From positions 62,001-126,000 of the forward strand of contig NZ_JARXHY010000007.1 of assembly GCF_031127815.1 (NCBI RefSeq): a stretch of DNA of 64,000 bases, given 5' to 3'. The notes under the pieces were generated by a model. That model saw nothing but the letters and a program-made list of their open reading frames with translations, did not search any database and was not told the DNA's origin. Below, one piece after another: positions 7,374 to 32,759 of the stretch. Made by a program: the position numbers and the translations under genes. The first letter of the stretch is position 1, and each line of letters opens with the position of its first letter. The stretch comes from Pelagicoccus sp. SDUM812003 (lineage in GTDB: Bacteria > Verrucomicrobiota > Verrucomicrobiia > Opitutales > Opitutaceae).

Positions 7374-7416
7374 CGTGTTTGATCCTAAGAAATATATAAA
7401 AAGAGGGAGAAAGGAA

Positions 7417-13362: not shown

Positions 13363-14223
13363 ATGAACTTCAGAAAGAATGTCGTCTTGAAGAAGGCTTG
13401 GCGCTACGGGGCTGCGGTGCCGCGCGCCTTTAGCTCGGCCACGGCGCGACCAAGCGCCTGGAGGCAGAACCCGCCGGTGCTGGCGAACTCCTTTCCTAAA
13501 AGCGGGACTCACCTGCTTCAGCAGATCCTGAGCGTATTGCCTGGCATGAAGGATTGGGGAGGCTTTTGGGCCTCCCAGCCGTCTTTCACCTTCCGGGAGA
13601 TCCAGCCTGAGGCCATGTCGCGACGGATCAGGCGCGTCAGTCCGGGCGAGCTGGTCTGCGGACACCTGTACTACAGCGACCAGGCGAAGGAGGCATTGGA
13701 AAGCAGGCACGTGGCTCACTTCTTCATCTATCGTGATCCACGCGATGTAGTGGTTTCGGAAGCTCACTATTTGGGTGAGATGAATCGCTGGCACAAGCTG
13801 CACTCGCGATTCAGCAAGCTGCCGACGAGAGCGGAGCGATTGCTTCTCTCCATCAAGGGACTGCCGAAGGAGGACATCTACTATCCGAACATCGTGGAGC
13901 GATTCTCTCGGTTCACGCAGTGGATCGAAGATCCCAACGTCTGCTCGATCAGCTACGAGGATCTGATTTCGGAGAACAAGTACCAGACGATCGAAAAGAT
14001 CATCAAATTCTACTGCTCGAGATCAGGTTACGACTATCCAGTTGAAGCCCTCATCCAGCGGGCCTGCGAGGCGATCCAGCCATCGAAGTCTCACACCTTC
14101 AGGCGTGGCGGCAGCGGAGGGTGGAAAAGCGAGTTCGATGGGGGCGTCAAGGAGCTGTTCAAGCAGATCGGCGGCGCCGAGCTGGTGATGAAGCTCGGCT
14201 ACGAGAAATCAGTCGAATGGTGA
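13363..14223 (+). CDS. Sulfotransferase (PAPS-dependent, Sulfotransfer_1 type)
   Basis: The 286-residue protein carries the 5'-phosphosulfate loop NSFPKSGTHLLQQIL (about 45-59), with the lysine-serine pair that binds PAPS. The 3'-phosphate motif FIYRDPRDVVVSEAHYL (about 122-138) is also present, with Arg and a downstream Ser. The C-terminal part contains FRRGGSGGWKSEF, matching the R-KG-x-G-x-W-K/N motif of the family. It probably transfers sulfate from PAPS to a sugar hydroxyl of the polysaccharide or its lipid-linked precursor. It lies between two glycosyltransferase genes on the same strand. No signal peptide, so cytoplasmic. Confidence 0.9.
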   Translation: MNFRKNVVLKKAWRYGAAVPRAFSSATARPSAWRQNPPVLANSFPKSGTHLLQQILSVLPGMKDWGGFWASQPSFTFREIQPEAMSRRIRRVSPGELVCGHLYYSDQAKEALESRHVAHFFIYRDPRDVVVSEAHYLGEMNRWHKLHSRFSKLPTRAERLLLSIKGLPKEDIYYPNIVERFSRFTQWIEDPNVCSISYEDLISENKYQTIEKIIKFYCSRSGYDYPVEALIQRACEAIQPSKSHTFRRGGSGGWKSEFDGGVKELFKQIGGAELVMKLGYEKSVEW

Positions 14224-14312
14224 TTCGTCGCCAATCGATTGCCATCAACGCTTAGCGGCGGGGCTCGCGTCACCGAACGGAGCTGCAGCGAAACATAAGA
14301 CAAGGAACTTGT

Positions 14313-15590
14313 ATGAAGATTCTGATACATGACTATGCTGGACACGCGTTTCAGATCCAGCTCACGCGGGAGCTCGCGCGGCGCGGATTCGAAGTCGTGC
14401 ACGCCTACGCGGGCGGATTGCTGACGCCGCAAGGGGACATGCAGCGCGTCGATGGCGATCCGCCTGGCCTCTCCTTTCGAGAAGTGCCGATGGATAAGCG
14501 GTATCGAAAGAACAAGTACAAGTTTCTGAAACGACGCGGATACGAGGTCGCTTACGGGAAGGAGCTGCAGCGGGTCATCGAGGACGAGCGGCCATCGATC
14601 ATTTTCAGCGGGAACACCCCGTCCGAGCCGCAATTGATGGCGGTCAAGCTTGCGAACGAGCTTGGCATTCCGTTCGTTTCCTGGGTTCAGGACTTCTACA
14701 GTGTCGCGGTGAAGAAACTGGCGGCTCGCAAGTCGCGAATTCTAGGGCGGCTGGCGGCGATCTACTATACCGAGGTGGATCGGCGATGTTTCAAGCGTAG
14801 CGCGCGCACCGTTGCGATCAGCGAAGATTTCATCCCGACGCTGGCCGAATACGGCGTTGATGCCCGCGACATTTCGGTGATTGAGAACTGGGGAGCCATC
14901 GCCGAGATCCCGATGCTTGGAAAAGACGTGTCATGGGCCCGCGAATACGGGTTTCATGACAAGAAGGTTTTCTTGTACACTGGAACCATGGCCATGAAGC
15001 ATAATCCTGATTTGGTGCTTCGTCTCGCCCAGCGCTTTCACAATGACCCGGAGGTTCGCGTGGTGGTGGTCTCGGAAGGGCCCGGCGCGGACTACTTGAT
15101 GGAGCAAAAGCCTATCCGGGGATTGAGCAATCTGGTCATCCTGCCGTTCCAATCCTTTGACGTCCTGCCGCAGGTGTTCGGAGCTGCGGACGTGATGATC
15201 GCCCTGCTCGAGGAAGACGCCGGTGTCTTTTCGGTGCCGTCGAAGATCCTGAACTATCTTTGTTCGGGCAAGCCAACCCTTGCGGCGATCCCCAAGGAAA
15301 ACCTCGCGGGGCGCATCTTGGAAAAGAATCGAGCGGGCATCGTGGTCTCTCCCCGAGACGCCGAAGGCTTCGCTCAGGCGGGCGAGGACCTGATCGACAA
15401 CGAAGCCCTGAGGTTGGAGATGGGAGCGTGCGCTCGACGCTACGCGGAGGAAAATTTCAAGGTAGAGATCGTTGGCGACAAGTTTCAGCGAGTGATCAAT
15501 CAGGTGCTGGGAACCGAAAAGACGAGTCCTGCTCGCCAGATGCTGGCGGCCAACGCTCTTCGCGAGGAGGCAAGAAGCTTTAGCGAATAG
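14313..15590 (+). CDS. GT4-family glycosyltransferase (WcaI/WbuB-like)
   Basis: The 425-residue product begins MKILIHDYAGHAFQIQLTRE, a WcaI/WbuB-like N-terminus. It also has SWVQDFYSVAVKKL and VIENWGAIAEIP, typical of transferases such as WcaI and WbuB. The C-terminal GT4 domain contains VFLYTGTMAMKHNPDLVLRLA, LVILPFQSFDVLPQVFGAADVMIALLEEDAGVFSVPSKILNYLCSG in broken motifs, and an acidic donor-binding loop. Its likely role is transfer of one sugar to the lipid-linked repeat. AGGAAC at 14302-14307 may act as a ribosome-binding site. Confidence 0.9.
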   Translation: MKILIHDYAGHAFQIQLTRELARRGFEVVHAYAGGLLTPQGDMQRVDGDPPGLSFREVPMDKRYRKNKYKFLKRRGYEVAYGKELQRVIEDERPSIIFSGNTPSEPQLMAVKLANELGIPFVSWVQDFYSVAVKKLAARKSRILGRLAAIYYTEVDRRCFKRSARTVAISEDFIPTLAEYGVDARDISVIENWGAIAEIPMLGKDVSWAREYGFHDKKVFLYTGTMAMKHNPDLVLRLAQRFHNDPEVRVVVVSEGPGADYLMEQKPIRGLSNLVILPFQSFDVLPQVFGAADVMIALLEEDAGVFSVPSKILNYLCSGKPTLAAIPKENLAGRILEKNRAGIVVSPRDAEGFAQAGEDLIDNEALRLEMGACARRYAEENFKVEIVGDKFQRVINQVLGTEKTSPARQMLAANALREEARSFSE

Positions 15591-15597
15591 GTTCAAT

Positions 15598-16425
15598 ATG
15601 GAGTCGCTTATGAACAGTATCCAGGAACTTGGTACGAGGTCGCCCAGCGCCGGGACGTCCCGCGTGAAGACCCGAGGAGTGATCTACGTCGTAACTGGGG
15701 GCAGGAGCTATCTCGGGGAGTTGGTTTCCTCCGTGAAAAGTCTGCGTCGCCATGAGCCGGACATCCCTGTAACCGTTTTTTCCCGCTACAAGCTGCCGTC
15801 TCGCTACAGGCTTGAACGCCGCGAGGTGGACCCTGATCTCAATCCGCACAAGCTCAAGGTGCGCTGCTTGCGCGAGTCTCCGTATGACGAGACGCTTTTT
15901 TTGGATACCGACACGTCTATCAAGGGAAAGGTGTCGCCTTTGTTCGACGAGCTCAAGCAGCACGACTTTTGCGTGGCTCATTCGCATGTGGCGGACTACT
16001 CTCGTCGACCTCCTTTGCTGCTGGATTTGGTGAAGGCTGATGGATACAACACTGGAGTGCTGCTGTTTCGCAAGTCCGATCCGACCTCGCTCTTTCTCTC
16101 CAAATGGGAAGGGGCGGTCATGGCGCATGATCCGAAGGAGATGTGGGCCGGTCACTACGGCGACCAGTACTTCTTCACCGAGCTGGTCAATGGTACGGGA
16201 GTGGCTGATTCCGAGCTCAAGTTCGGGATCCTGGACAACGTCAAGTGGAACTGCCGGGGCATCGCTTCGGAGCACGTTCGCAAGATCAATCGCTGGTCGG
16301 ACGTGAGGATCTTTCATCACCGCACCAGCGGCATGAAGATTCGGAAGCTGATCTACTCCATCACGGATTTTCCGACGGCGAAGGTGATCGCTGGCAAGGG
16401 GCTTCGGCTCATGAGGCTGAGATGA
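15598..16425 (+). CDS. GT-A-fold glycosyltransferase-like protein
   Basis: The 275-residue protein has an N-terminal nucleotide-binding beta-alpha pattern (GVIYVVTGGRSYLGELVSSV) and a DxD motif in the strand LFLDTDTSIKG (about 100-110), as used to bind divalent metal and NDP-sugar. A later YNTGVLLFRKSD resembles the NAG/NTG acceptor motif of GT8-like enzymes, and GDQYFFTEL is also GT8-like. It starts 7 bases after the previous gene. It is probably a sugar transferase acting on the same polysaccharide, and it is the only GT-A-type enzyme in the locus; the exact family is uncertain. Confidence 0.8.
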   Translation: MESLMNSIQELGTRSPSAGTSRVKTRGVIYVVTGGRSYLGELVSSVKSLRRHEPDIPVTVFSRYKLPSRYRLERREVDPDLNPHKLKVRCLRESPYDETLFLDTDTSIKGKVSPLFDELKQHDFCVAHSHVADYSRRPPLLLDLVKADGYNTGVLLFRKSDPTSLFLSKWEGAVMAHDPKEMWAGHYGDQYFFTELVNGTGVADSELKFGILDNVKWNCRGIASEHVRKINRWSDVRIFHHRTSGMKIRKLIYSITDFPTAKVIAGKGLRLMRLR

Positions 16426-16513
16426 CCCCGGGTTCGGGAGCGACAGGTCGTATGCGCGCAGCGAATACGTCTGTTTTAAGTTCGCCAGTTGAGCTGCGAA
16501 GGGATTGAATGGT

Positions 16514-17863
16514 ATGAGTGTCAGTCGTCACATTATGACTTATGATAGCCGAAGAAGCTATGCGGGGCCGGTTGAGGAATCCTCGGATGGCGGTTACCTA
16601 GCGAAAGCGGTGCTGGTCACTCTTTTCGCCTGGGCGTTGCTGGGAAAGCAGCTGCTGTTCATGCTGGCGATCGTCTTGAACGTGCCGACCCGTGTGCTTA
16701 CGATCCCATCGCACATGGCCACGGTGGGGTTGGCGCTGGCCTCGGTGGTGGTGGTTTTTTTCGCCACCCGTTTCCGCTACTTTCCGCTGCATTGGATCGT
16801 GCTGCCATTCAGCGCCTTCTGGATGTTCTACTTCATGCGCATCGTGATCGACTACCAGGCGCAGGGGTCGATGTTCGCCCCGCCGAAGGACGCGACCTAT
16901 TCGGTCAGCTACATCGCTCAGAAAGCGATTGGCACCTGTCTGTTGCCTTCCGTCGCGGTATTGCTGAACACGCATTGGGCGGCCTGGCGAAAGACGCAGA
17001 CGGTTTGCTTCACCATGGCGGTGCTGATTGCGGGTTCCTTTTTCGCGATCTACCGGGAAAACATCTTTTCTTTCAGTGGGAGAATGAATCCGGGCGATGA
17101 AACGGGCGATTTCGCCACGATCAGCTCGCTCCAGCTGGGGTACTCGGGGCTGGTGTTGCTGATCTTCTTCCTGTTCATGTACTTCTCCGAACGGCCCAAA
17201 AACGTTTGGAAGGCGCTCTTGCTCTACTCGGTAGGGGCGGTGGGCATGCTGCTGATCGTTGGCAGCGCCTCGCGCGGACCGGTGGTTGGCTTCGTCTTCA
17301 TGGCGGTGCCGTTCGGCTTCTCGCTGTTCTTTCGTGGCGAGCCCGGCAAGTTTATCAAGTTTGTGGTCGGTGTGGCGACCTTCGGAGCGATCGCCCTGAT
17401 CGCCGCTCAGCTGACGGGCAGCAGCGTGTTCGATCGTTTGCTCAGCATCCATCACGATGTGGTTTCACAGTCGGACCAATCCGATCGGCTCGTCTTCTAT
17501 GAGAACGCGTGGAACTCCTTCCTGGAGTCTCCGATCATCGGATCGCAGTCTTCGCTGGGAGGTTATGCCTACCCGCACAACTTGATTCTCGAGTCGCTGA
17601 TGGCGGTGGGGATCGTCGGCACCATCCCGCTGCTCGTCGTGATCGGATACGCCTTCTACTGCTCGTGGGCGCTGCTGGTGCGCTATCCGAAGCTCGGCTG
17701 GCTGTCTCTGGCTTTCTACGCCTACTTCTGTGGCTCGCTCTTTTCCGGTTCCCTTTTTTCGAACGCGGCATTCTGGATTTCGATGGCTGGCACGATTTCG
17801 GCCTATCAATGGGCGGCGAGAGAAATGGATGAGCAGGAGGAGGAAGAGGCCCTTCGCTCCTGA
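16514..17863 (+). CDS. O-antigen ligase/polymerase-like membrane protein (Wzy-like)
   Basis: ATG 16514 is chosen because AAGGGA (16499-16504) is at good spacing; the track of codons allows TTG 16505. The 449-residue product has roughly ten or more hydrophobic helices and a large loop containing FSFSGRMNPGDETGDFAT. It also has the VGSASRGPVVGFVF segment, where an Arg follows a Gly/Ser-rich turn as in Wzy and WaaL proteins. The C-terminal 15 residues are acidic. As the only O-antigen_lig-like protein in a locus with a flippase and a chain-length regulator, it is most likely the Wzy polymerase that joins repeat units in the periplasm. Confidence 0.85.
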   Translation: MSVSRHIMTYDSRRSYAGPVEESSDGGYLAKAVLVTLFAWALLGKQLLFMLAIVLNVPTRVLTIPSHMATVGLALASVVVVFFATRFRYFPLHWIVLPFSAFWMFYFMRIVIDYQAQGSMFAPPKDATYSVSYIAQKAIGTCLLPSVAVLLNTHWAAWRKTQTVCFTMAVLIAGSFFAIYRENIFSFSGRMNPGDETGDFATISSLQLGYSGLVLLIFFLFMYFSERPKNVWKALLLYSVGAVGMLLIVGSASRGPVVGFVFMAVPFGFSLFFRGEPGKFIKFVVGVATFGAIALIAAQLTGSSVFDRLLSIHHDVVSQSDQSDRLVFYENAWNSFLESPIIGSQSSLGGYAYPHNLILESLMAVGIVGTIPLLVVIGYAFYCSWALLVRYPKLGWLSLAFYAYFCGSLFSGSLFSNAAFWISMAGTISAYQWAAREMDEQEEEEALRS

Positions 17864-17925
17864 TCGAGGGGGTGGCTCCCTGGCTCATCTCCTGCCGGGC
17901 GTTCCTCCCGAAAAGGGTCTAGTTT

Positions 17926-19098
17926 TTGAATAAGATGAACGAGAAGATCGTATTTTTGATGTCCCACCCGAGGCATGCCAGGATGTGGCGTCGGGCGAAA
18001 CGCGTGCAGCCGCATTTTCAGCAGTCGCAGGTTCTCGCCTTCGACCGAGAGATCTCCACCCCGGCCAAGCACGGCGACTATGTTTCGCTAGGGAACATCG
18101 CCAACCGAAACTACCTGTCTCGGCTGGGGAGCTTGTTCAAGGCGTTTCGCATCATCAGAGCGTCGGTGAAGAGCGCCAGCGCGGTGTATTGCTTCAGCTT
18201 GGATCTCCTTTTGCTCGCATGGGTGGCCTGCCTGACCTCGCGGGCCAGGCCGAAATTCGCCTACGAGGTGGCCGACATTCGAGACGCCCTGGTCGGCAAA
18301 GGCGTCGCCAGCGCGGCGCTGCGATTTCTGGAGCGCTTTTTGATCCGCCGCGTAGCGGTGGTCGCCTTCACCTCGCGGCATTTCTACGAAGGCTATTTTC
18401 GCGAGGTGCAGCGTTTCGATTCCTTCCCTCATGTGGTCATCGAGCACAAGCCGGAGCTTCCCCGGCAGATCCGCGATTCGATCGAAAGGCCAGCAGGTCT
18501 TCCGAGACCCATTACGGTGGGCTACTTCGGGCTCATGAAGAGCGTCGCCTCGTTCGAATTGCTCGTGGAGCTCGCAAAGCGCTCCCAAGGCGCTGTTCGA
18601 GTCCTCTTTCGTGGGATGTTCGTGCCGCCCCTCGATGAAGCGCAGTGCCTAAAGACGATAGATGAATACGCTGAGCTTTCCTATGGAGGACCCTATAAAT
18701 CTCCGGCGGACTTGCCTAATATGTATCCGCAAGTTGATATCGTATGGGACGCATATAACGAAACGGAAAACTCGCGTTGGCAAAGAACGACTCGTTTTTC
18801 CGAATCTCTTTTCTTCAAAAAGCCGCTTATCGTTAACATCGGAACGCAAGACGAGCGCATCGCTCGGCAATATAACTTAGGGTTAACCGTTGATATAAGC
18901 GATCCCGAATCGGTTGTTGAGGCTCTGTTGGGAATTCGCGAAGAAGACTATCTAGAGTGGTGCGAGAGCTTCGATCGCTTGCCGGATTCCATGCTGTATT
19001 ATGGTGATGAATACAGCTCTTTGGTGAAGGCGCTGAAGCCCGAAGGGTCTGGGCTGCAGGGGAGCTTCGCGGTATCCCACGCACCGTCTCACAGCTAG
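17926..19098 (+). CDS. Glycosyltransferase, GT-B type
   Basis: The 390-residue product may begin at TTG 17926 or ATG 17935; an AAAAGGG at 17911-17917 fits either loosely. It begins with KIVFLMSHPRHARMWRRAKR, then shows FAYEVADIRD and VAFTSRHFYEG in the acceptor domain and VGYFGLMKSVASFELLVELAK at the start of the donor domain. The family motifs are weaker than in its neighbours, but the overall length and pattern fit a GT4-like enzyme. From about 18640 to 18900 the DNA becomes clearly AT-richer and uses codons such as ATA and TTA that are rare elsewhere in the gene, suggesting a mosaic 3' part. Confidence 0.75.
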   Translation: MNKMNEKIVFLMSHPRHARMWRRAKRVQPHFQQSQVLAFDREISTPAKHGDYVSLGNIANRNYLSRLGSLFKAFRIIRASVKSASAVYCFSLDLLLLAWVACLTSRARPKFAYEVADIRDALVGKGVASAALRFLERFLIRRVAVVAFTSRHFYEGYFREVQRFDSFPHVVIEHKPELPRQIRDSIERPAGLPRPITVGYFGLMKSVASFELLVELAKRSQGAVRVLFRGMFVPPLDEAQCLKTIDEYAELSYGGPYKSPADLPNMYPQVDIVWDAYNETENSRWQRTTRFSESLFFKKPLIVNIGTQDERIARQYNLGLTVDISDPESVVEALLGIREEDYLEWCESFDRLPDSMLYYGDEYSSLVKALKPEGSGLQGSFAVSHAPSHS

Positions 19099-19326
19099 GG
19101 ACACGTAAGGTTTGGTGGATCCCTTAGGAAAGCCTACGGAGACGGGCGGAAATTTTTTTTCGAAGGGCTTGAGTCGTAAATTTTTCTATAAGATTCAGTC
19201 AATGAAGCGATTAGAAAGGGGATGGGGGAACTTGATATAGAATCGGGCGTCTGTTCGCCGTTTAAACGATATGTGAATTGAAATTCATGTCGCGATTCGT
19301 GTTCGAATTCGTACGAAAAAGCGACG
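19099..19326. other. Promoter-like intergenic region
   Basis: This 228-base AT-rich gap has several A/T runs (for example 19152-19160) and no gene. It separates the glycosyltransferase block from the secreted beta-helix protein gene and may hold its promoter; no precise boxes can be assigned. Confidence 0.35.
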
Positions 19327-21831
19327 ATGACCCATCCAACGATGATAAGAACCAACTTCAACCAAACGACTAAAAGTACGAGCTTTAGTAGTAGCAGATG
19401 TTCTTGGATCGTTTCACGTGCACAGGAGAGTTCGGGCTTTGGCCAATCTCGTGCGTTCGCGAAGCGATTCATGGCGCTTGTAGCTGCGGTGTTCGTATCC
19501 TCTTCATTCTATTCCAACGCGGAGGCTGCCCATACCTATATGGAGGTTTCCAATGGGACGCTAAGTTTCCCCTCGGACCAAAACGGGTACAAGATTCCCG
19601 ATTTCTCCTATGCCGGTTACGAAAACTCCAACAAGGATCTGCCGGAGTACGGCGTTCACTACCAAGCGAAGGTCACGCTGAACAATCCTAGCGGAAACGA
19701 GACCTGGCGCGTGCAGAACGCGGTGGATCAGGTCGCTGCGATGGGACTCAACCAGTATGGCTACCGCGGCGCGGTGGTGCTGGGACCGGGCACCTGGGAT
19801 GTTGACACCATTGAAATCAAGAAAAGCGGTATCGTCATTCGCGGCGCCGGAGAGGGCTCCACGATCATCGAGAGCCACGTTCCCGATGGACGACCGGCTC
19901 AATCGATCCTGGTTGGTGAAATCATGTCTCCGGATCCGAACCAGCTGTTCATGGACGGTCGTTCCGGCTCGAAGTGGGACATCACCGACAGCGTGGTCGA
20001 CGTGGGAGATCGTTCCTTCAACGTGGAGTCCGGTCACAGTCTCACGATCGGCGACTCCATCGTGATCGAGCATCCCTGCACCTCGGCTTGGCTCTCCGCC
20101 ATCGGCGGCGGCGCTCCCTATCCCAAGAACTGGGGCGTAGGAGAGGTGCCGATACGCTACGTTCGCAAAGTCACTGCTGTCGAAGGAAGCAGGATCACCA
20201 TCGACGCCCCTGTTTTCTACTCGTTGGTCAAGGCGCGCTCGCAGTGCTTCGTCTACAAGTATACCGGAAACCCGATCAACAAGGTGGGAATCGAAAACCT
20301 GACCATCGATCACAAGACCAACTCCAACATCGACCAGGGGCACCAGAACCACTGCGTGAAGTTTGGCAAGGTAGACAACTGCTGGATGAGAAACGTCAGA
20401 GCCCAGAACTACAAGGCCCAAGGGATCGTGGTCCGGGAATCGAGCCGCGTGACTTTCGACAACGTTGACGTGACCGATCCGCACGCGGAAGTGAAGGCCG
20501 CTCACCGCTACGGAATCTCCTTTCGCGGCGCCCAGTTGATTTTGGCCAAGGATAGCTACGGACGCAGAAATCGCCACCAGTATATCGGCGGGGGCCATGC
20601 CATGGATTCCGGAAACGTCTTCGTTCGCTGTATCGCAGAGGACAACTACGGGGCTTCGGAGGACGGCCACCAGCGCTGGGCGAACGGCACCTTGTTCGAC
20701 GCTTGCGTCTTCCGGCAAGTGGGAAGCCCGGAGTCCAACACCGGCAAGTATTTCGACCAGAAGATGCTATGGATGGGTAACCATGGCGACAACAGCAATG
20801 GGCATGGTTGGGCGTCCGTCACCGGCGTCGCTTACAAATGCCGCGTGCAATCCGGCGGCTACGCCATCGTAGCCAAGCCTCCCACGGGGATGAACTACGT
20901 GATCGATTGCGAAGGCGATTTCAGATCGAGCCACTCCGCTCATGGCGACTACCCGGGAGCTCTCAACATCAGCACTTCGGGCACGCTGCCGGAGAGCCTG
21001 TTTGAAGCTCAATTGGCGCAGCGGCTTGGCAAGACCGCTCAAGCTATCTGGTCGACCCAGCAGGATGCTTTGGATTTCGAGTACCAGCTCGTGGGGTCGG
21101 AATCGGATCGCACCTTCACTCTCACCAACACCGGCAGCGATACGCTCAGCGGTTCGATCGACGTGGACAGCTCTGTCTTTTCGATCGTCTCCAGCAAGAG
21201 CTTCAGCGGCCTCGCCCCAGGCAGCGATCTGACGATTCACGTTAGGTATCAGCCCAGCGAAGCGGGGTCTGACAGCGCCACCTTGACCGTATCCAGCGAC
21301 AGAGACTTTCAAGTCGTTTTGGGCGGCGTGGCCGTCGAGGCCCAGGAGAGCAATCTGCTTCTGGCCGACTCGGGGACTCTGCTTGGAGCCATGGCCGATT
21401 ATGGCGACTACATCACCACTACCCTCAAAGACGAAGGCTATGCCGTTTACGCTGTCTCGGTGGCGCAGGCCGGCGAATACAAGCTAGTGGCGGAGGTCAA
21501 CGCCTCCGCAGAGGGCAGCAACTCCTTCTATCTCGCCATAAACAAATTGCCGAGCTCAGCCGAGGACACCTGGGACGTGGTCACGCTTACCGACGGATTC
21601 GAGCTGCGCGAAGTATCGCTGCGAGGCTCTGGAGCCTATAACGCTCCGGAATTCGAACCCGCGACTTGGGAGCTGGCAAAGGGCGTTCACTACATTTATC
21701 TCCGTGGTCGTGAAACGGATACGCAATTGCGTCAGCTTACGCTGATGTCTACTGCCGATGCAGGGGGGGCCGCCCCGGTCCAGCCTACGACTTTGGATGT
21801 GAAGGAACTTGTCGGCGACGACAACACATAG
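19327..21831 (+). CDS. Secreted right-handed beta-helix protein with ASH-like and CBM-like domains
   Basis: The 834-residue frame has an unusually long S/T-rich n-region before a clear signal sequence (MALVAAVFVSSSFYSNAEAA); ATG 19471 is therefore an alternative start. Residues about 140-560 form a pectate-lyase-like right-handed beta-helix, with VVLGPGTWDVDTIEIKKSGI, VIRGAGEGSTII and many short N/D-G-V turns. Residues about 585-672 look like an ASH/HYDIN-type Ig domain (FTLTNTGSDTLSGSIDVD, VRYQPSEAGSDSATLTV). Residues about 675-815 resemble a CBM6/35-type beta-sandwich (GEYKLVAEVNASAEGSN, GVHYIYLRGRETD). It may trim or modify the polysaccharide as a lyase, epimerase or hydrolase; catalytic residues are not identifiable by eye. 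Confidence 0.85.
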   Translation: MTHPTMIRTNFNQTTKSTSFSSSRCSWIVSRAQESSGFGQSRAFAKRFMALVAAVFVSSSFYSNAEAAHTYMEVSNGTLSFPSDQNGYKIPDFSYAGYENSNKDLPEYGVHYQAKVTLNNPSGNETWRVQNAVDQVAAMGLNQYGYRGAVVLGPGTWDVDTIEIKKSGIVIRGAGEGSTIIESHVPDGRPAQSILVGEIMSPDPNQLFMDGRSGSKWDITDSVVDVGDRSFNVESGHSLTIGDSIVIEHPCTSAWLSAIGGGAPYPKNWGVGEVPIRYVRKVTAVEGSRITIDAPVFYSLVKARSQCFVYKYTGNPINKVGIENLTIDHKTNSNIDQGHQNHCVKFGKVDNCWMRNVRAQNYKAQGIVVRESSRVTFDNVDVTDPHAEVKAAHRYGISFRGAQLILAKDSYGRRNRHQYIGGGHAMDSGNVFVRCIAEDNYGASEDGHQRWANGTLFDACVFRQVGSPESNTGKYFDQKMLWMGNHGDNSNGHGWASVTGVAYKCRVQSGGYAIVAKPPTGMNYVIDCEGDFRSSHSAHGDYPGALNISTSGTLPESLFEAQLAQRLGKTAQAIWSTQQDALDFEYQLVGSESDRTFTLTNTGSDTLSGSIDVDSSVFSIVSSKSFSGLAPGSDLTIHVRYQPSEAGSDSATLTVSSDRDFQVVLGGVAVEAQESNLLLADSGTLLGAMADYGDYITTTLKDEGYAVYAVSVAQAGEYKLVAEVNASAEGSNSFYLAINKLPSSAEDTWDVVTLTDGFELREVSLRGSGAYNAPEFEPATWELAKGVHYIYLRGRETDTQLRQLTLMSTADAGGAAPVQPTTLDVKELVGDDNT

Positions 21832-21857
21832 GAGAACGATTTAGGAACGAGTCGATC

Positions 21858-21883: not shown

Positions 21884-22197
21884 TCTTTCAGAATGCGGCT
21901 ACCGGTAGACCTGGTAGTCGCGTTCGCGTGTACGCGACCTTGTCTTTTCGGTCTCCAGCGCGATCGGTTCGCGTACTTCGATATGCAATTCAGCTCGATT
22001 CACGCCCACGACTTGGGGCAATCCTCGAGAACGAATCCGTCGAGTTCGGGCTGCAAAGCGATCGCTCGCGAGATTTATGTTTTCGAGTTTCCGCGAATTG
22101 GAAAGTAGAGCGCGTCTCAGCTAGACGAGCGTTGCCAGGTTGCGGTTCGCATTCGCGACCATTGGCCCTGTTTGTTCACCTATACCCAACCTCAAAT
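21884..22197. other. Gap without a convincing gene before the methyltransferase
   Basis: The methyltransferase frame stays open back to 21928, but the encoded residues are R/S-rich and show no domain, so I treat it as untranslated. No repeat or promoter stands out. Confidence 0.4.
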
Positions 22198-24379: not shown

Positions 24380-24402
24380 TCACAAAACTCAAGCTGCAGC
24401 TT

Positions 24403-25260
24403 ATGAATATGAAAACGGAAGTGGAACGCAGGCGTCCTTCTATGGATCCGACGCCATGGAATTACCGAGAGCCCAAGCTGGATCTACACCACCGCTACAA
24501 AGGCTATGTCAACGAGGTCAAATCGTTGATCAATGCCGGGATGTCGATTGCTCGAGGGAAGTACAGCAAGCCTGACTCGCGATTCGTCATATTTGGCCGG
24601 GAGCGTTCCGGCTCGACCCTACTGGTACGCTATCTGGATCAGCACTCCCAGATTCATTGCTGTGGTGAGATCTTGCGATCGCGCATGCTCTGGCCGCACG
24701 GGCATCGGGATCGCTGCCTCAATGCTGGCACGAAGCCGGTGCGGGGCTTCAAGCTGCTCAGCTACCAGGTTACGCAGGTGCATGGGCAGCGGCCGGACGG
24801 CGGCTACCTGAAGCGTCTGTCCGAAGAGGGCTTCAAGGTCATATACCTGCATCGCGACAACTACTTTCGTCTTGCTGTATCCAATATCTACGCGCGCTTG
24901 AGAGGCGCGTTTCATCAGGAGGCGTCTCGCAGCGCTGAGGCAAAGCGCGAGTCTTTTGTCTTCGATCCCAAGGTGTTGGTGAACTGGATGGAAGGGGCTG
25001 AACTCCGGACCCGAGAAGAATTGAAGCTGCTCGAGGATGTCGATTTTCTAGAGGTCGAATACGAGCGCGACTTGTCGAATCAGGAGACGCACCTGCGCAC
25101 CCTGAAGCGCGTGTTCGATTGGCTGGAGGTCGAGCCGGAACCCCTTTCCCTCGCTTTGAAGCGAATCACCCCGAAACGATTGGACGAAATCATCGAGAAT
25201 TACGACGAGGTTGTGGAAGCGGTTTCCAAAACGCGCTACGAGCGATTTCTCGAAAAGTAG
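24403..25260 (+). CDS. Sulfotransferase (Stf0/Sulfotransfer_3-like)
   Basis: The 285-residue protein has the PAPS 5'-loop FVIFGRERSGSTLLVRYLDQ (about 62-81), in which R-x-x-S-G-S-T replaces the P-K-S-G-T form. This RSGSTLL version is typical of Stf0 and nodulation NodH-type enzymes. VIYLHRDNYFRLAVSNIYAR (about 147-166) is the 3'-phosphate binding segment with Arg and Ser. The C-terminal half is rich in E, R and L, with a VDFLEVEYERDL segment. It probably sulfates a sugar in the glycan. It differs in subfamily from the gene at 13363. Confidence 0.87.
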   Translation: MNMKTEVERRRPSMDPTPWNYREPKLDLHHRYKGYVNEVKSLINAGMSIARGKYSKPDSRFVIFGRERSGSTLLVRYLDQHSQIHCCGEILRSRMLWPHGHRDRCLNAGTKPVRGFKLLSYQVTQVHGQRPDGGYLKRLSEEGFKVIYLHRDNYFRLAVSNIYARLRGAFHQEASRSAEAKRESFVFDPKVLVNWMEGAELRTREELKLLEDVDFLEVEYERDLSNQETHLRTLKRVFDWLEVEPEPLSLALKRITPKRLDEIIENYDEVVEAVSKTRYERFLEK

Positions 25261-25336
25261 AACACCGTCGAGCGGTCTGCCGATCGCGATGCTCAAGCAT
25301 CGAAACGGCCTTTCACGAGTTCACTGAGCGTTACAT

Positions 25337-26830
25337 ATGTCCCTTAAGACGAAAACCATAACAGGCGCCCTTTCCACTGGATTCGGACAGGGGGTGAAGG
25401 TCGTCTTGCGCCTTCTTTCGATCGCTGTCCTGGCGCGTTACCTCAGCCCGGAGGACTATGGCTTGGTCGCCCTTGTGACCTCCATCGCGGGGATTCTCGC
25501 GATCTTCCAGGAAGCGGGACTATCCACTGCCATTTTGCAGAAGCCGGAAGTCAACCAGATCGAACTGAGCAGCATCTATTGGACGAACGTGGCATTAGGC
25601 TTCGCGGTCTTCGTCCTGACCGCAGGGTTCGGACCGATCGCTAGCAGGATATTCGATCAGGAACTGCTCGTGTATTTGCTTCCTTGTTACGGTCTTGCAG
25701 CGTTTATTCGAAGCTTCACGGTGCAGCGCGTGACCTTGTTGCAACGGGAAATGAAATTTACGGAGCTGGTGAAGGCGGATCTGATCAGCTTGGTGGCGAG
25801 CACTGTTGCGGCGATCGTAGCGGCCATGAACGGATTGGGCGTGTGGTCTCTGGTCGTTATGAATCTTTCCTACACTTTGATCTACAATCTGATGGTTACG
25901 GTCTATCAGAAGTGGCATCCAGATTTTCGATACCATCATGCGTCCGCCTTGCCCTTGCTTCGTTTTGGGGCTTCGATCATGGGGTCTAAACTGATTGGTC
26001 GCATCGGAGAGAGCTTGGACGCGATCATAGTGACCTATTTCCTAGGAGTCAGTCCAGCAGGCTACTACAATCGGGCCCAGAGCATCCTGAACGGGCCGAT
26101 GCGGCAGATCGTCAATCCGATCATTTCCGTAGCTCGCGCCGGGACGTTTCGCGCGGCAGATGAACGCGCCAAGCTGGAAAAGGCGGTGGGGCTGGTACTG
26201 ACGCTGACCTCTTTGGTATGCGGCTCGATCGTATTGCTGTCGTTCGCTCTTGCGTATCCAATTGTCATGACGTTGCTCGGTCCGGAATGGGCGCTTTGCG
26301 TTCCGTTGTTCATGGCCCTTGCGCCCTTCGCCTTGATCGAACCGTGCTCCTCTTATTTGACCACGGTTCTGGTTTCGCGGGGGGACGCCGCGGCATTGTT
26401 CAAGTGGAAGCTGTTCAGCGTGACGACAATCGTCATCAGCTTGTTCATCGGTTTGAAGTGGGGGATCTTGGGAGTGGCCTGCTCGTATTCACTTTCTGGG
26501 CTCTTTGTTCGATTCCCGCTACTCTTCGCCTATTCCTCTCGAAAGATCGGCATCCCGTTTCTCCGTCTGATGAGTGGCGTGCTTCCCTCTCTGGCCGTGG
26601 GCGCTCCGTTGATCGCGATCAATCTGATCGCCTATCTGCGGGACCAGGAGCCCGGACTGTTGCAGTCCACTTTGCTCGCTCTCGTGACCATGAGCGTGTA
26701 TTGGGGAGCGATGTGCTTTTTCGAAAACACTCGGGAGGCGGTGACGCTGCTCACGAATCGTTTGTTTCAAGTCATGCCTTTCAAGCCATTGAGGCGGCGC
26801 ATGCAGTTAGCCTGGTCGCGCGGCCGCTGA
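25337..26830 (+). CDS. Polysaccharide flippase, MOP superfamily (Wzx-like)
   Basis: The 497-residue integral membrane protein has about 12-14 hydrophobic helices. It shows the typical N-terminus of the WzxC group: TITGALSTGFGQGVKVVLRL, followed by VLARYLSPEDYGLVAL, which is the AR-L-P-DYG motif. RFGASIMGSKLIGRIGESLD and VSPAGYYNRAQSI are further WzxC-like signatures. It moves the undecaprenyl-linked repeat unit across the inner membrane. The only flippase in the locus, pairing with the Wzy-like gene at 16514. The C-terminus is basic. Confidence 0.93.
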   Translation: MSLKTKTITGALSTGFGQGVKVVLRLLSIAVLARYLSPEDYGLVALVTSIAGILAIFQEAGLSTAILQKPEVNQIELSSIYWTNVALGFAVFVLTAGFGPIASRIFDQELLVYLLPCYGLAAFIRSFTVQRVTLLQREMKFTELVKADLISLVASTVAAIVAAMNGLGVWSLVVMNLSYTLIYNLMVTVYQKWHPDFRYHHASALPLLRFGASIMGSKLIGRIGESLDAIIVTYFLGVSPAGYYNRAQSILNGPMRQIVNPIISVARAGTFRAADERAKLEKAVGLVLTLTSLVCGSIVLLSFALAYPIVMTLLGPEWALCVPLFMALAPFALIEPCSSYLTTVLVSRGDAAALFKWKLFSVTTIVISLFIGLKWGILGVACSYSLSGLFVRFPLLFAYSSRKIGIPFLRLMSGVLPSLAVGAPLIAINLIAYLRDQEPGLLQSTLLALVTMSVYWGAMCFFENTREAVTLLTNRLFQVMPFKPLRRRMQLAWSRGR

Positions 26831-26872
26831 TGACGGTGGAGCAAGGGGAACGAACCCGGTTGGAAATCGGTT

Positions 26873-28030
26873 ATGCCCATGAGATTCAGTTTTGTACATT
26901 TCACTTTGCCTGATGAGGCCGAGAGCGGGATCGTGCGCTACGGCCGGCATCTGGCAGCTCAGGCCTCCTTGGAGGAAGAGGTGACGGAGATCGCTCTGAC
27001 TTTGGGCAAGCAGTCCGGACGGTTCGACGTTGGGCAGGTCGAGGGTGATCTCGGGCGAATGGTTTTCCAGTTCTCACCTTATTATCATCCCCAGGCCTGC
27101 ATCGAGGCCATGCGGGCTCTTGTTCGGAAAACCTCAGGGGATCCGGCCAAGCATCTGATCATCGTGCACGACTCGAATCGACTGGCCAGTCCTTTCAATC
27201 AGTTCACCCGGTTCCGCCGCTTGCTGCAGTTGAAGCTTTGGTCTCGGGCGATTCAAATCAAGAGAGTCGGGGACCAGCTGAAGCGCTTTCTCCGGGACGC
27301 TCTCCCGACGAAGTTCGCGCTGAGCGCGTTCGACCAGAAGCAGACCGTCGAGCTCTCGGCCCGATTGGCCTATGACTGCGTATCCGTGCCGCATTTCGTC
27401 GAAGAACCGAACTTCTCGTTTGATAACGAGGATGCGAAAAAAAGCCTCGGACTCGAAGGCAAGCAGGTGTTGACGATACTCGGATTCCTGTCGCCGCACA
27501 AGCGACACAGGCTTTCGCTGCAGGCCCTAAGCCACCTGCCAGAAAACTATCATCTCGTGCTGGCGGGCGGCGCCACCGACTTGAGCGGCTCCTACTTTCG
27601 CTCGATCGAGGAGTCGATCGAAGAAATGGGACTGGCGGACAGGGTCACCATCACCGGCTATTTGCAGGAACGCGATCAGGCCTGCTACATTGGCGCTACC
27701 GACTTGGCGATCTGCCTTTATCGGGGAGGGGCCGCGTCCGGCTCGCTTTCGACCTGGATCGCTCACCGGAAGCCGATTCTCGTTTCGCAAGTCCAAGAGC
27801 TATCGCTTTACAATGAAACGGCTCCCGGCGCCCTTGAAGTGCTGACGAGCGACGACCCGATTTCGCTGGCCGGGAGGATCCAGTCGATCCTAGAAGGCCC
27901 GATCGACGACGAGCTCTCGGCGCTCGCCCAGCTGAAGACCGAACTGTCGCTCGAGCGGACGTGGGAAACCTACCGAAAATGCCTCGTCGAGTCGGAGGAG
28001 GGGTTCTCCAGGCTCGTGCCGATGGCGTAG
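26873..28030 (+). CDS. GT4-family glycosyltransferase
   Basis: The 385-residue product opens with MRFSFVHFTLPDEAESGIVRYGRHLA (broken here: RFSFVHF, then GIVRYGRHLA), a GT-B acceptor-domain start. The donor domain is clear: VLTILGFLSPHKRHRLSLQAL, HLVLAGGATDLSG, VTITGYLQERDQACYIGATD, then AICLYRGGAASGSLSTWIAHRKP. The G-x-x-S-G-S-L-S segment in place of E-G-F/x-G indicates a variant nucleotide-sugar site. It lies 42 bases after the flippase gene and probably acts on the same repeat unit. Confidence 0.88.
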   Translation: MPMRFSFVHFTLPDEAESGIVRYGRHLAAQASLEEEVTEIALTLGKQSGRFDVGQVEGDLGRMVFQFSPYYHPQACIEAMRALVRKTSGDPAKHLIIVHDSNRLASPFNQFTRFRRLLQLKLWSRAIQIKRVGDQLKRFLRDALPTKFALSAFDQKQTVELSARLAYDCVSVPHFVEEPNFSFDNEDAKKSLGLEGKQVLTILGFLSPHKRHRLSLQALSHLPENYHLVLAGGATDLSGSYFRSIEESIEEMGLADRVTITGYLQERDQACYIGATDLAICLYRGGAASGSLSTWIAHRKPILVSQVQELSLYNETAPGALEVLTSDDPISLAGRIQSILEGPIDDELSALAQLKTELSLERTWETYRKCLVESEEGFSRLVPMA

Positions 28031-28075
28031 GCGTGGTTTGCGGGCGCTGGGCTATGAATTTCGAAGTAGTAGGCT

Positions 28076-28816
28076 ATGATTATCTCCAACAACAATCGCT
28101 ATATATTCGTGCACATCATGAAGGCCGCGGGCACGAGTGTGACGGACGCTTTGAGCAAGCGTCTGGACTGGCGGGATTTGGCCTTGGGAGGGACGGAGCT
28201 CGGCGAGCAGATCCATCACTTCTACAATGCTCACTGGGGCGTGGGAAAGCACAGCATGGCGCGAGAGATCAAGGCTCTGGTGGGTGACGAGGTTTGGGAG
28301 GACTATTATACGTTTTCCTTCGTCCGCCATCCGTTTCCGCGGGCCGTCTCGCTGTACAAGTACATCCAGCGCTTCGCGGAGCAGGAGAGGGTGCCTTGGT
28401 GGAAAAGCGCCTTGCGGGCGGCGGCTGGAAGAAAGAAGCGTTTTCGCAGGAATCGGTGGCTGAATGACCTGCCGGAGGCCAAAGCGTATTTCGAAACGAG
28501 TTCCTTTTCCACATTCATACGCCGAGCTCACGAGGTGGGCGCTTTGGGCATGAAGCCTCAGGTCGACTGGGTGACCGACGAGGAAGGAAACGACATGCTG
28601 GACTTCGTGGGAAAGGTGGAAAATTTGGAGGCCGACTTCGAACGAATCGTTCAATCGGTCGGTCTGGAAGGCGTGCAGCTGTCGCGCGCCAACAAGTCCA
28701 CGTATCAGAAACCTTGGTACGAGTACTTCGCGGATGAAACGGACTTCCAGTTTCTGTCCGAAGTGTTTTCAGAGGACTTCGTCCATTTCGGCTACGACGC
28801 TTCTCGTAGACGGTAG
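28076..28816 (+). CDS. Sulfotransferase family 2 (carbohydrate sulfotransferase-like)
   Basis: The 246-residue protein has YIFVHIMKAAGTSVTDALSK (about 9-28), the HIPKTAGTS-type PAPS loop of Sulfotransfer_2 enzymes with Met for Pro. The 3'-phosphate motif is FSFVRHPFPRAVSLYKYIQ (about 80-98). FVGKVENLEADFERIVQSVG (about 179-198) is the third conserved segment, and a C-terminal acidic-aromatic YFADETDFQFLSEVFSEDF matches the family end. Animal members are heparan/chondroitin O-sulfotransferases. It probably O-sulfates a glycan residue here. A third sulfotransferase subfamily for the locus. Confidence 0.9.
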   Translation: MIISNNNRYIFVHIMKAAGTSVTDALSKRLDWRDLALGGTELGEQIHHFYNAHWGVGKHSMAREIKALVGDEVWEDYYTFSFVRHPFPRAVSLYKYIQRFAEQERVPWWKSALRAAAGRKKRFRRNRWLNDLPEAKAYFETSSFSTFIRRAHEVGALGMKPQVDWVTDEEGNDMLDFVGKVENLEADFERIVQSVGLEGVQLSRANKSTYQKPWYEYFADETDFQFLSEVFSEDFVHFGYDASRRR

Positions 28817-28914
28817 GCCGGGGTCGTCTTCGCTCTTTTTTAGATCAATCGCCCTCGCGGGTTTTCGTTTTCCGGTGAGGTCGCGGTCAGAACATCCAAC
28901 GATCATCTATAGTG

Positions 28915-30813
28915 ATGAAAAGGAATCGGTTCAGTCGATTTGCGCTCAGCGCGCTAACGCTTCTTCTGTTCGCCGTGTCCGTCTGGGTATTTTTGAAGGC
29001 GGAACGCGTGCTTCATCCGCTCGAATTTTCCGAGGAGTTCGAGCTGGAGGAACTCGCCTATTGCTACGACCTGAATGATATGGGCGTAGCGGATGTCAAC
29101 GATGACAGAAACTACGACATCTTCACTCTCAATCACAGCAATCGTCAGCTGCTGATGCTGAAAGGGGAGGATGGAGCGTACCGAGATCGCCTTGTGGAGC
29201 TGGGGCTTTCGCAAAGCAAGGCCTTCCCTGGCGTCGAAGGCGGTTGGGAGGTACCCCCGATCGAGGAGGAAGGCTTTTATATCTACTGGGATCGAGGAAA
29301 GCTGGTATTGAAGACGGCGTTCGGCTTCGAGGTGTCAGGTCAGGTGCGCTTGCCGAGAGAGCTGAAGTTCGATCTGAGCGGGGAGGTGACGATGAGCGAG
29401 CTGGGCGATCATGACATTGGCTTCCGATTCGATGGGGATGGGGAGATCGTCATATCATCCTGGGAATACTATTTTCTTCCGATTTTCGAACTGGATAAGG
29501 ACGTGTCGTTGAAATCTGTATACGTGGGGCCGAAGCGTGCGAGCCCGACTCAGCCAACGTTCGAGCTTCCTGAACAGGATCGTCACACCATGATTTGGGC
29601 GGATTTCGATGGAGATGGCAGGACCGACGTGCATATCGCCAGAGGGGGCGATCAGGGAATGCTCGCCGATACCCACCCGGACGCCATGGATGAGCTTTAC
29701 CTGTTCCGCGACGACGCCTTCGTCGAAGTGACGGAAAGTACCGGCATGATGAAAAACGGAATGCCGGCGCGCAGCGCCCAAGGCATGGACGTGGATGGCG
29801 ACGGAAAGATCGATCTGTATGTGGTGAACGGTCGCGCTTGGGAGCCGAACAAGAACGCGCCGAACCAGCTCTTCGCGCGAAAGGACGAATTGAGATTCGA
29901 GGAAGAGGCGCATCGCCATGGGCTCGATGTCCCGGGAGATGGAGTGGTCCAGTGGATCGATTGCGACAACGATGGCGATATGGATATGGTCTGGGGCGCG
30001 GAGGACAAGTTGTCGCTTTTCCGCAATGTCGAAGGACTGTACACGGAAGAACGTCTCGCTCCGCTCGAGAGCAAGCCGCACAGCATGACCGCTAGCGACT
30101 TCGATCGAGATGGCGACATCGACATCTTTGTCGTCTCAGAGGCGGGTAACGTTCTGCTGTTGGGCGAGGCGGGTGGCTTCGTTCCGGTTTCGCCCGATCG
30201 CTACGGTTTGCCGACGCGGAGCGACGTGGCGAACTGGGTGGATTACGACAACGATGGCCGGGTGGATCTGCATGCCTTGCCTCAAGGATTGTTCAAGCAG
30301 GGGGAGGACGGAACGTTCGCCCGGACTGGCTTGCTTTCGCTGCGCATCAGTCGCAAGGCGTTCTGCTCCTGGTTCGATGCGGACAACGATGGCGATCGCG
30401 ATATGCTGCTCGCTCTGATGGATCCCTTCGAGGTCGCCTTCGACCGGATCAAGCGGAAATTCATCGAGCCCGACGGCATTTTCAAGCCGAAGCTTTGGCG
30501 GGTGTATCTGATCGAGAACAACGTATCCACGAAAAACAACTGGCTCGAGGTGGAACTCGTCGGGCAGCGAGGAAACCGTCCAGCGGTTGGAGCTCGGGTG
30601 GTGCTGGATACGGCTGACGGGCAGGTGCAATCGTTTGTCTGCCACGCGGAGGGATCGTTGCATTCCCAAGGGCATTATCGGCTGTATTTCGGTCTTGGCG
30701 AAGCTGAGCGATACGAGTCGCTCAAAGTCGTCTGGCCGAACGGGGTAGTGGAGGAATTTGGACCCGGCCCAGCGAACCAGCTGCTTGTATTAGAAAACTC
30801 TGACAATAGTTGA
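28915..30813 (+). CDS. Membrane-anchored FG-GAP/VCBS repeat protein with ASPIC/UnbV C-terminus
   Basis: ATG 28915 is preferred to the adjacent GTG 28912. The 632-residue protein has an N-terminal signal anchor (FALSALTLLLFAVSVWVFL, about 9-27). Repeated D-x-D-x-D-G-x-x-D calcium-binding loops follow (DFDGDGRTDVH, DVDGDGKIDLY, DCDNDGDMDMV, DFDRDGDIDIF, DYDNDGRVDLH, DADNDGDRDML), predicting a beta-propeller. The last 95 residues are an ASPIC/UnbV domain (NWLEVELVGQRGNRPAVGARV, VVWPNGVVEEF). Residues about 95-200 form an inserted beta-rich region not matching a repeat. Such proteins bind carbohydrate or protein outside the cell; here it may organise the polysaccharide at the surface. Confidence 0.85.
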   Translation: MKRNRFSRFALSALTLLLFAVSVWVFLKAERVLHPLEFSEEFELEELAYCYDLNDMGVADVNDDRNYDIFTLNHSNRQLLMLKGEDGAYRDRLVELGLSQSKAFPGVEGGWEVPPIEEEGFYIYWDRGKLVLKTAFGFEVSGQVRLPRELKFDLSGEVTMSELGDHDIGFRFDGDGEIVISSWEYYFLPIFELDKDVSLKSVYVGPKRASPTQPTFELPEQDRHTMIWADFDGDGRTDVHIARGGDQGMLADTHPDAMDELYLFRDDAFVEVTESTGMMKNGMPARSAQGMDVDGDGKIDLYVVNGRAWEPNKNAPNQLFARKDELRFEEEAHRHGLDVPGDGVVQWIDCDNDGDMDMVWGAEDKLSLFRNVEGLYTEERLAPLESKPHSMTASDFDRDGDIDIFVVSEAGNVLLLGEAGGFVPVSPDRYGLPTRSDVANWVDYDNDGRVDLHALPQGLFKQGEDGTFARTGLLSLRISRKAFCSWFDADNDGDRDMLLALMDPFEVAFDRIKRKFIEPDGIFKPKLWRVYLIENNVSTKNNWLEVELVGQRGNRPAVGARVVLDTADGQVQSFVCHAEGSLHSQGHYRLYFGLGEAERYESLKVVWPNGVVEEFGPGPANQLLVLENSDNS

Positions 30814-30857
30814 GGCGCGTCTTTCCACTCCGTCGAGTGTGGAGCGCCACCGGTTTT
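30814..30857 (+). terminator. Probable intrinsic terminator
   Basis: GGCGC (30814-30818) pairs with GCGCC (30844-30848), and inside it CCACTC and GAGTGTGG pair around a CGTC loop. GGTTTTT (30851-30857) follows. It lies directly after the FG-GAP protein stop codon, so the two last sulfotransferase genes may have their own promoter or depend on read-through. Confidence 0.55.
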
Positions 30858-30890
30858 TAATAATCAAACAATACTCCAAGAAGAGCGTTT

Positions 30891-31694
30891 ATGGGAAAGG
30901 AGACTAACAACTCGGAAGAGTCAGCGGTGGATTTCAGGGAATGGATCAGCGTCGCCAGCGAAATCTCTCGCTGGTCGACCGACCGCTTCTGGGAAGTTTG
31001 TGCCCGAATTGCGAATACAGATGGAGCGGGCCCTGTCGAGGTAGACAAGATCGCATGGATCTGCTTCCCAGCGAGTGGCTTCTCCTACTGCAGCAAACTG
31101 CTTTCGCGGCACCCTGAGATCTATTCCCTGACTCGACCGCTCGAACATTCGCACGATAGCAGTCGTCTCAGCGGCAAGAAGTTTCTCGCTCAGATTCGCA
31201 AGCTGGAGGCGAAGGCTGCCGATCGGGTGTTGAGCTTTCCAGTGTATCCGGAACTGCTCAGTCGCATCGAATACGTGCGCCACGTGCTGGCGGACCGGAA
31301 GACCTTGAAGGTGGTTTTTCGGCGAGATCTATTGGGCGACTATCTGAAAAGCAGCAACGGACGCTACAGCACGCGTCGGGCGCAAGGCAGCGAAGCTGAC
31401 GATGCGAGGGAGAAGGAGCGCTCGGAGATCTTTCAGTATTTGCTAAGTGTCGGAGGGATGCTGAGCCAGGCGGAGCTTTTTCTGATGCGCACTCAGCAGC
31501 CGTATGGAGTTTGCGCATACGAGGACGTCGCTCGGGGGAAGACGGCGGAAGATCGCTTGCGAGCGATGATCGACGAGATTGTCGCTTCCAAGGCGGACTT
31601 GGGCAAGCGCTTCCAGAAAGAGCGCGACGAGCTGGGGGAGCGCGGTGCGTCCGGGCGCCGAAAGCTAAACTATTTGAACCATGCTAGGCGCTAG
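30891..31694 (+). CDS. Divergent sulfotransferase-like protein
   Basis: The 267-residue product is not a textbook family member. IAWICFPASGFSYCSKLLSRHP (seen in parts: ICFPASGFSYC at about 57-67) resembles a PAPS 5'-loop in which the usual K-S-G/T is reduced to A-S-G. LKVVFRRDLLGDYLKSSNGRY (about 140-160) resembles the 3'-phosphate motif of Stf0-like enzymes, with RRD and a downstream Ser. It has no signal peptide. It sits between two genes of known glycan context and next to another sulfotransferase. It could be an active divergent enzyme or one that has lost catalysis, since the PAPS-binding lysine is missing. Confidence 0.55.
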   Translation: MGKETNNSEESAVDFREWISVASEISRWSTDRFWEVCARIANTDGAGPVEVDKIAWICFPASGFSYCSKLLSRHPEIYSLTRPLEHSHDSSRLSGKKFLAQIRKLEAKAADRVLSFPVYPELLSRIEYVRHVLADRKTLKVVFRRDLLGDYLKSSNGRYSTRRAQGSEADDAREKERSEIFQYLLSVGGMLSQAELFLMRTQQPYGVCAYEDVARGKTAEDRLRAMIDEIVASKADLGKRFQKERDELGERGASGRRKLNYLNHARR

Positions 31695-31769
31695 GTCGAA
31701 CCAAGGGCGCGCATGGTTTTGAAATGAATAACGCACGAGAGAAACAATCGAAGTGGAAAGTAAACAGGG

Positions 31770-32759
31770 ATGAAGAATCTTACAGGATTATATAGCGCGA
31801 TCGACAAGCGGCTTAAGGGAGGGACGCTTTCCGTTCGTTTGGCGCTTGCCAACCAAGTCGCCAAAGCGAACCCGCCCTCGAAGCGAGGGGTCGCGGTTTT
31901 CGGCACCGAATTTTCAGGAACGTCGTGGGTGGGAAAGGCGTTGGCCTACTCGCCGGATGTCGCTTTCTACCATAGGCCGAACGGCACCAACGACTTGTCG
32001 GCGCAATACGAGATCGAGGCCAGTCGCTACTTGCTCCCGAGCGATGATGACGGATTTGAGGATCACAATTTGCGCCAAGCTTTCAACGGGCGATTCGTGG
32101 GTCTGAACGAGTTGAGCGCCGACGCGATCGATCTGCGTCGCCGTGGCGACTACCGGGTGCTGGTGGAGGAGGTGGCGAGTTTTCTCTCCATCGAATGGGT
32201 TGCTCGGAAATGGGCTCCGCAGGTGGTAGTGGTGACGCGTCATCCGTGCTCGCATGTTCGCTTGGCTCAGAATCAAGGTGCCGCCGAATCCGAAGCGAGA
32301 CAGCTGAATCGGATCCTAGACTGCGAAGCGCTTCGTTCGGGAATCCTCGAGCCGCATCTGGATCGGTTGAGCGAGCTCAAGCGGCCGATCGAGCGCTCTG
32401 CCGCCCTGTGGGCGATCAAGAATCTGGTCGCTCATGACGCGTATTCGAGAAACCCGGATTGGGTCTTCGTCAAGTACGAGGATCTTTGTCAGGATCCGAT
32501 TCAGCGATTCAAGGAACTCTACGAGGAGCTTGATCTGGAATGGAATCTGGGCGCGGAAGACTACTTGGAGTACGTGAGCTCGGATGGGTGCCAGCCTTTC
32601 GTAGGCGTCGAGCCTTTGAACTCGAAGCAGGTCAATCGCTGGAAAAACGAAATGTCGGCGGACGACATCAGAACCATCATGCGTGTCGTCGAGCCCTTTG
32701 GGCTGCCGAGCTACGAAAGGAACGTCCTCGAATCGGGGGGCGTGGCGCTCAAGCCCTGA
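31770..32759 (+). CDS. Sulfotransferase-like protein
   Basis: The 329-residue protein has GVAVFGTEFSGTSWVGKALA (about 38-57), a PAPS loop of the form T-E-F-S-G-T-S-W. VVVVTRHPCSHVRLAQNQG (about 151-169) is the 3'-phosphate motif with Arg and His-Pro. A later VKYEDLCQDPIQRFKELYEEL (about 233-253) is the conserved YEDL segment that follows in sulfotransferases. The C-terminal NRWKNEMSADDIRTI also fits the family. No signal peptide. It is the last gene of the polysaccharide locus, ahead of a strong terminator. Confidence 0.82.
   Translation: MKNLTGLYSAIDKRLKGGTLSVRLALANQVAKANPPSKRGVAVFGTEFSGTSWVGKALAYSPDVAFYHRPNGTNDLSAQYEIEASRYLLPSDDDGFEDHNLRQAFNGRFVGLNELSADAIDLRRRGDYRVLVEEVASFLSIEWVARKWAPQVVVVTRHPCSHVRLAQNQGAAESEARQLNRILDCEALRSGILEPHLDRLSELKRPIERSAALWAIKNLVAHDAYSRNPDWVFVKYEDLCQDPIQRFKELYEELDLEWNLGAEDYLEYVSSDGCQPFVGVEPLNSKQVNRWKNEMSADDIRTIMRVVEPFGLPSYERNVLESGGVALKP

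Follow-up and report, generated by a model that had tools for sequence, protein, structure and literature searches.

The window analysed here is the whole stretch of 64,000 nucleotides at bases 62001-126000 of contig C7, in a genome of 5.75 Mb that is 97.5% complete. Its polysaccharide locus is best read as one for a sulfated exopolysaccharide, because a complete Wzx/Wzy locus carries members of three Pfam sulfotransferase families and PAPS genes are found elsewhere in the genome. Five sulfotransferase candidates are considered, designated ST1 to ST5 in order of position: three are probably active and two are doubtful, since ST1-ST3 keep the donor residues and ST4 and ST5 are without the loop cation. 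Overall, we consider it likely that a Wzx/Wzy exopolysaccharide is sulfated by ST1, ST2, and ST3, with ST5 probably deficient in donor binding and ST4 probably a diverged relative. Among Wzx/Wzy sulfated-exopolysaccharide loci, a kind already known, the locus is a rich example that has perhaps partly decayed.

Gene content of the locus

All genes assigned between 4604 and 32759 are on the + strand and form a one-strand Wzx/Wzy exopolysaccharide locus (ORF list and profile searches), with intergenic gaps of 7-228 bases from 13363 onward. By Pfam and NCBIfam matches, the Wzx/Wzy set is complete: an initiating sugar-phosphate transferase (Bac_transf, 4604-6040; PF02397, E 1.7e-68), a Wza-like polysaccharide export protein (7375-8013; PF02563, E 9e-19, plus SLBB), a Wzc-like co-polymerase with a tyrosine autokinase domain (9581-11893; TIGR01007, E 6e-33, above cut-off), a Wzy-type polymerase or ligase (16505-17863; PF04932, E 2.4e-10), and a Wzx-type flippase (25337-26830; PF13440, E 1.9e-63). 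A BBP2-like outer-membrane beta-barrel is encoded at 5910-7373 (PF10082, E 5.4e-7), where the true start is probably inside the ORF. Four glycosyltransferases are clear (11969-13267, PF00534, E 1.2e-25; 14313-15590, PF13439, E 7e-14; 23105-24379, PF13692, E 5e-17; 26873-28030, PF00534, E 7e-11) and one or two more are probable, with a weak match at 17926-19098 (PF13579, E 8e-4, under cut-off). A nucleotide-sugar transferase-like protein is encoded at 15598-16425 (PF03407, E 4.8e-5, barely above cut-off).

The remaining genes include a methyltransferase (21928-22980; PF13578, E 2.7e-8) and a beta-helix protein with a choice-of-anchor D domain (19327-21831; NF012200, above cut-off). The latter also matches a hyaluronan lyase model (NF058554) at E 2.6e-7, far under its cut-off; it may act on the polymer as a polysaccharide lyase or an epimerase. 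An FG-GAP repeat/UnbV_ASPIC protein (28912-30813; PF13517, PF07593) sits amid the polysaccharide genes, flanked by the sulfotransferase-like ST3 and ST4.

From this gene content and these family assignments we infer a sulfate ester, its positions, and an order of steps. The 4604 transferase would start repeat units on a lipid carrier, and about five to seven glycosyltransferases would extend them. Sulfate would be added by ST1, ST2, and ST3, most likely in the cytoplasm, using PAPS made by CysD, CysN, and CysC encoded elsewhere in the genome; methyl groups would possibly be added by the locus methyltransferase. The 25337 product would then flip the units, and the 16505 product and the Wzc-like co-polymerase would together polymerise them; export of the polymer would fall to the beta-barrel and the Wza-like protein.

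The sequence-only reading had placed the PAPS synthesis genes outside the window, and cysD, cysN, and cysC were indeed found elsewhere in the genome, on contig C20: an APS kinase gene (cysC) at 45254-45706, with proteins like CysN and CysD encoded at about 53.2-55.5 kb. CysN, CysD, and CysC also serve sulfur assimilation, so their presence is permissive evidence only. Family searches found six further sulfotransferase-like genes in the genome. Two of the six are in a second polysaccharide cluster, on C26 (L068/L069), which has a Wza-like protein. The window's sulfotransferases are short, whereas a further sequence, L002 (C24:32746-33339), lies in a long open frame of 898 aa whose protein has a strong Sulfotransfer_3 domain (E 3.6e-46).

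The five sulfotransferase candidates

ORFs are present at all five proposed positions (13363, 24403, 28076, 30891, and 31770), all on the + strand. Their codon-position GC resembles that of neighbouring genes (GC3 0.69-0.77), and all five frames are intact. Three are above the curated cut-offs of three different Pfam families: ST1 (13363-14223) in Sulfotransfer_1 (PF00685, E 1.5e-13), ST2 (24403-25260) in Sulfotransfer_3 (PF13469, E 4e-10), and ST3 (28076-28816), of carbohydrate type, in Sulfotransfer_2 (PF03567, E 7.5e-16). Against an order profile, made from the sequences of 50 sulfotransferases in the host's order, ST2 scored E 1.6e-13 and ST3 E 1.4e-36. The interleaving of the candidates with glycosyltransferases, Wzx (PF13440), and a Wzy-type protein (PF04932) is likewise seen in the Pfam matches.

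Residues that contact the donor in solved sulfotransferases include a Lys or Arg in the PAPS loop and the 3'-phosphate residues. ST1, ST2, and ST3 keep both: the loop cation in PKSG, RSGST, and MKAAGTS, respectively, and the 3'-phosphate Arg...Ser pair in RDPRDVVVS, RDNYFRLAVS, and RHPFPRAVS. In ST1, the loop (FPKSGTH) and YRDPRDVVVS are accompanied by GHLYY, whose His falls where the catalytic base is usually found, and RRGGSGGWK; this loop was misplaced when the sulfotransferases of the window were aligned with one another. ST2, which is Stf0-like, has a RERSGST loop, LHRDNYFRLAVS, and the 3'-phosphate motif named above; its PF13469 match is strongest over the loop region, and the Stf0 model is narrowly under its cut-off. 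In ST3 (loop HIMKAAGTS, 3'-phosphate motif FVRHPFPRAVS), the Sulfotransfer_2 match spans the full length, and phrog_3347 is matched at E 5e-16. It is the sole Sulfotransfer_2 protein found in its own genome, and the resemblance to glycans of eukaryotes or algae proposed in the sequence-only reading would derive only from the family of this one protein. On these motifs, all three are probably active as sulfotransferases.

Enzymes in these sulfotransferase families can also use acceptors of other kinds, and the families of ST1 and ST2 both include non-polysaccharide enzymes. The sulfate might go to a lipid, LPS core, protein, or small molecule rather than to the polymer. In a PDB sequence search the nearest match to ST1 was a cytosolic SULT (SULT2A8, E 9e-5), and ST2 weakly matches a trehalose 2-sulfotransferase model; PDB sequence searches with ST2, ST3, and ST5 found nothing firm. 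The candidate genes are, however, intermingled on a single strand with those for glycosyltransferases, Wzx, and Wzy, and other loci of the order also pair such genes with glycosyltransferases, so that an acceptor off the polymer appears unlikely.

ST5 (31770-32759) falls just under the cut-off for Sulfotransfer_3 (25.9 bits against 27) and matches Sulfotransfer_1 at E 0.0026, but against the order profile it scores E 5.4e-16, and it is a member of the sulfotransferase superfamily and fold by sequence comparison. Its donor site is another matter. Its two best relatives, in G064:C24 and G147:C17, have one motif pair each (HDRSGTSWVGK with RHPYPVIQS, and SHRSGTTWVGK with RHPLAFCSS, respectively), while ST5 itself has TEFSGTSWVGK and RHPCSHVRLA. 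In the alignment, Phe and Ala replace the loop Arg and the 3'-phosphate Ser kept by both nearest relatives, and donor binding has probably been lost.

ST4 (30891-31694) is an orphan. It matches no Pfam family, even at E 10, and nothing in the other libraries searched; its HMMER score against the order profile is only 5.5 bits, a value equalled by 3 of 1000 shuffled sequences. No convincing relatives were found in genome contigs, viral contigs, phages, plasmids, 177 genomes of the order, or 252 of the family. Two observations nonetheless connect it to sulfotransferases. By hhalign it aligns to the PAPS-loop columns with a score of 25.2, though the probability is only 14.5%; the controls reached at most 19.6 (non-sulfotransferase proteins of the window) and 18.1 (100 shuffles). 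The motifs of ST4 (FPASGFS at 59, RRD at 144, YED at 210) are also similar in order and spacing to those of ST2 (loop at 66, HRD at 150, YE at 220), with Ala in the loop where Lys or Arg is expected. A single-sequence AlphaFold model has a pLDDT of 39.8, too low for a fold reading. ST4 is probably a diverged sulfotransferase relative that is without the loop cation.

Of the five sulfotransferases originally proposed, profile searches thus back those at 13363, 24403, 28076, and 31770, with weak support for 30891; placement outside the sulfotransferase fold, considered for several candidates, was rejected for these four, leaving at most one (30891) in doubt rather than three or more. Motifs resembling those of a PAPS site had been reported in all five, which is confirmed for ST1-ST3 but not for ST5 (Phe, Ala) or ST4 (loop Ala), and the loss of these residues in ST4 and ST5 suggests lost activity. 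The further step, to a highly sulfated polymer with several sulfation positions made by five working enzymes, is not supported, because two of the five are without the basic PAPS-loop residue. It could still be that all five are active, each sulfating a different position, and that ST4 and ST5 bind PAPS with altered residues. Five intact frames with normal codon-position GC, and the superfamily membership of ST5, are in keeping with this, but in ST5 the loop Arg and 3'-phosphate Ser conserved in its relatives are both replaced, and ST4, with its loop Ala, is not established as a family member; we regard heavy sulfation by five enzymes as improbable. More improbable still, ST4 and ST5 could be pseudoenzymes that organise or gate ST1-ST3, or could use a non-PAPS donor, resulting in patterned sulfation.

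Genomic site and distribution in the order

A cbb3 oxidase operon starts at 33479, after the locus. Its first gene (33479-35782) encodes fused cbb3 subunits I and II (COX1 and FixO), a fusion conserved in all eight genus genomes examined. The fused protein is 85-88% identical in seven congeners, and DNA similarity to these begins at 33183-33254 of the window, a sharp end to synteny just upstream of the oxidase gene. None of the locus genes was found upstream of the oxidase operon in the seven congeners, within the 11-40 kb fetched (some stretches being ended by contig ends), nor was ST4 found in these genomes by genome-wide search. The seven have another gene block in common at this site, a protein of which has its best match in the present genome on C17, at 84% identity. 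Since the locus is missing upstream in the congeners and their block has its match on C17, the polysaccharide locus at the oxidase site is an acquired or rearranged region.

This setting bears on ST4 and ST5, which could be relics in decay where an acquired polysaccharide region ends, with only ST1-ST3 of any consequence. They are the last two genes, both without the loop cation; ST4 has no convincing relative in the 252 family genomes; and the locus is absent upstream of the oxidase operon in the seven congeners. Their frames, however, are intact, and their codon-position GC is normal. Decay at an edge is a real possibility, if one to which we would give somewhat less than even chances.

Sulfotransfer_1, _2, and _3 were matched in 68, 40, and 75, respectively, of 177 genomes of the order. 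In at least 24 of the 177, a 20-kb stretch holds two or more sulfotransferases, and in at least six or seven it holds three or more (seven if two close genes in G133:C58, merged in the grouping, are counted separately). ST5 was added by hand to the Pfam matches for this grouping, and the counts are a lower bound. The maximum per 20 kb among the matches listed is four, in the present locus and in G106:C67. In three other loci of the order that were read, sulfotransferases are mixed with glycosyltransferases in all three, and with sugar epimerases in two. The multi-sulfotransferase locus is consequently not unique, two to four recurring among loci of the order, and the present one marks the upper end of a continuum rather than an exception to it.

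Few sulfated-polysaccharide loci outside the cyanobacteria have been studied. The present one combines three sulfotransferase families in one complete export locus, and such loci recur in the order. It offers good candidates for bacterial glycan sulfotransferases, and its degraded copies suggest turnover of sulfation genes.

Comparison with known systems

Within the order, G106:C67, G064:C24, and G147:C17 likewise have three to four sulfotransferases among glycosyltransferases, but they differ in gene content, and ABC transporters adjoin two of them. G064:C24 and G147:C17 hold the closest relatives of ST5, with the PAPS-loop Arg kept, unlike in ST5 itself.

Among published systems, the synechan (xss) cluster of Synechocystis sp. 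PCC 6803 encodes a Wzx/Wzy sulfated polymer, experimentally shown, and has two sulfotransferases of distinct subfamilies (PMC8205485). The two loci are alike in their Wzx/Wzy machinery and in having distinct-subfamily sulfotransferases inside, with about eight glycosyltransferases in synechan. They differ in that synechan has two sulfotransferases, as against three intact and two doubtful ones here, and has its own sensor and regulator genes, none of which were seen in the present locus; and its sulfated polymer has been demonstrated, while the one here is predicted. The sulfated capsule cluster of Vibrio sp. KMM 8419, with 80 genes, has three sulfotransferases (PMC11641403) and similarly combines several such genes with glycosyltransferases, but export is by an ABC transporter and the PAPS genes are in the cluster, where the present locus has Wzx/Wzy and PAPS genes elsewhere. 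The statement in the sequence-only reading that one or two sulfotransferases are usual agrees with the published clusters found (two, PMC8205485; three, PMC11641403), but not with the two to four that recur in the order. In Pontiella sulfatireligans, for which an N-sulfated exopolymer has been measured, the sulfated GAG-like cluster has one sulfotransferase, with three in the genome, and no family mix is reported there (PMC7356697); like the present locus, it is a cluster of glycosyltransferases with a PF13469 sulfotransferase.
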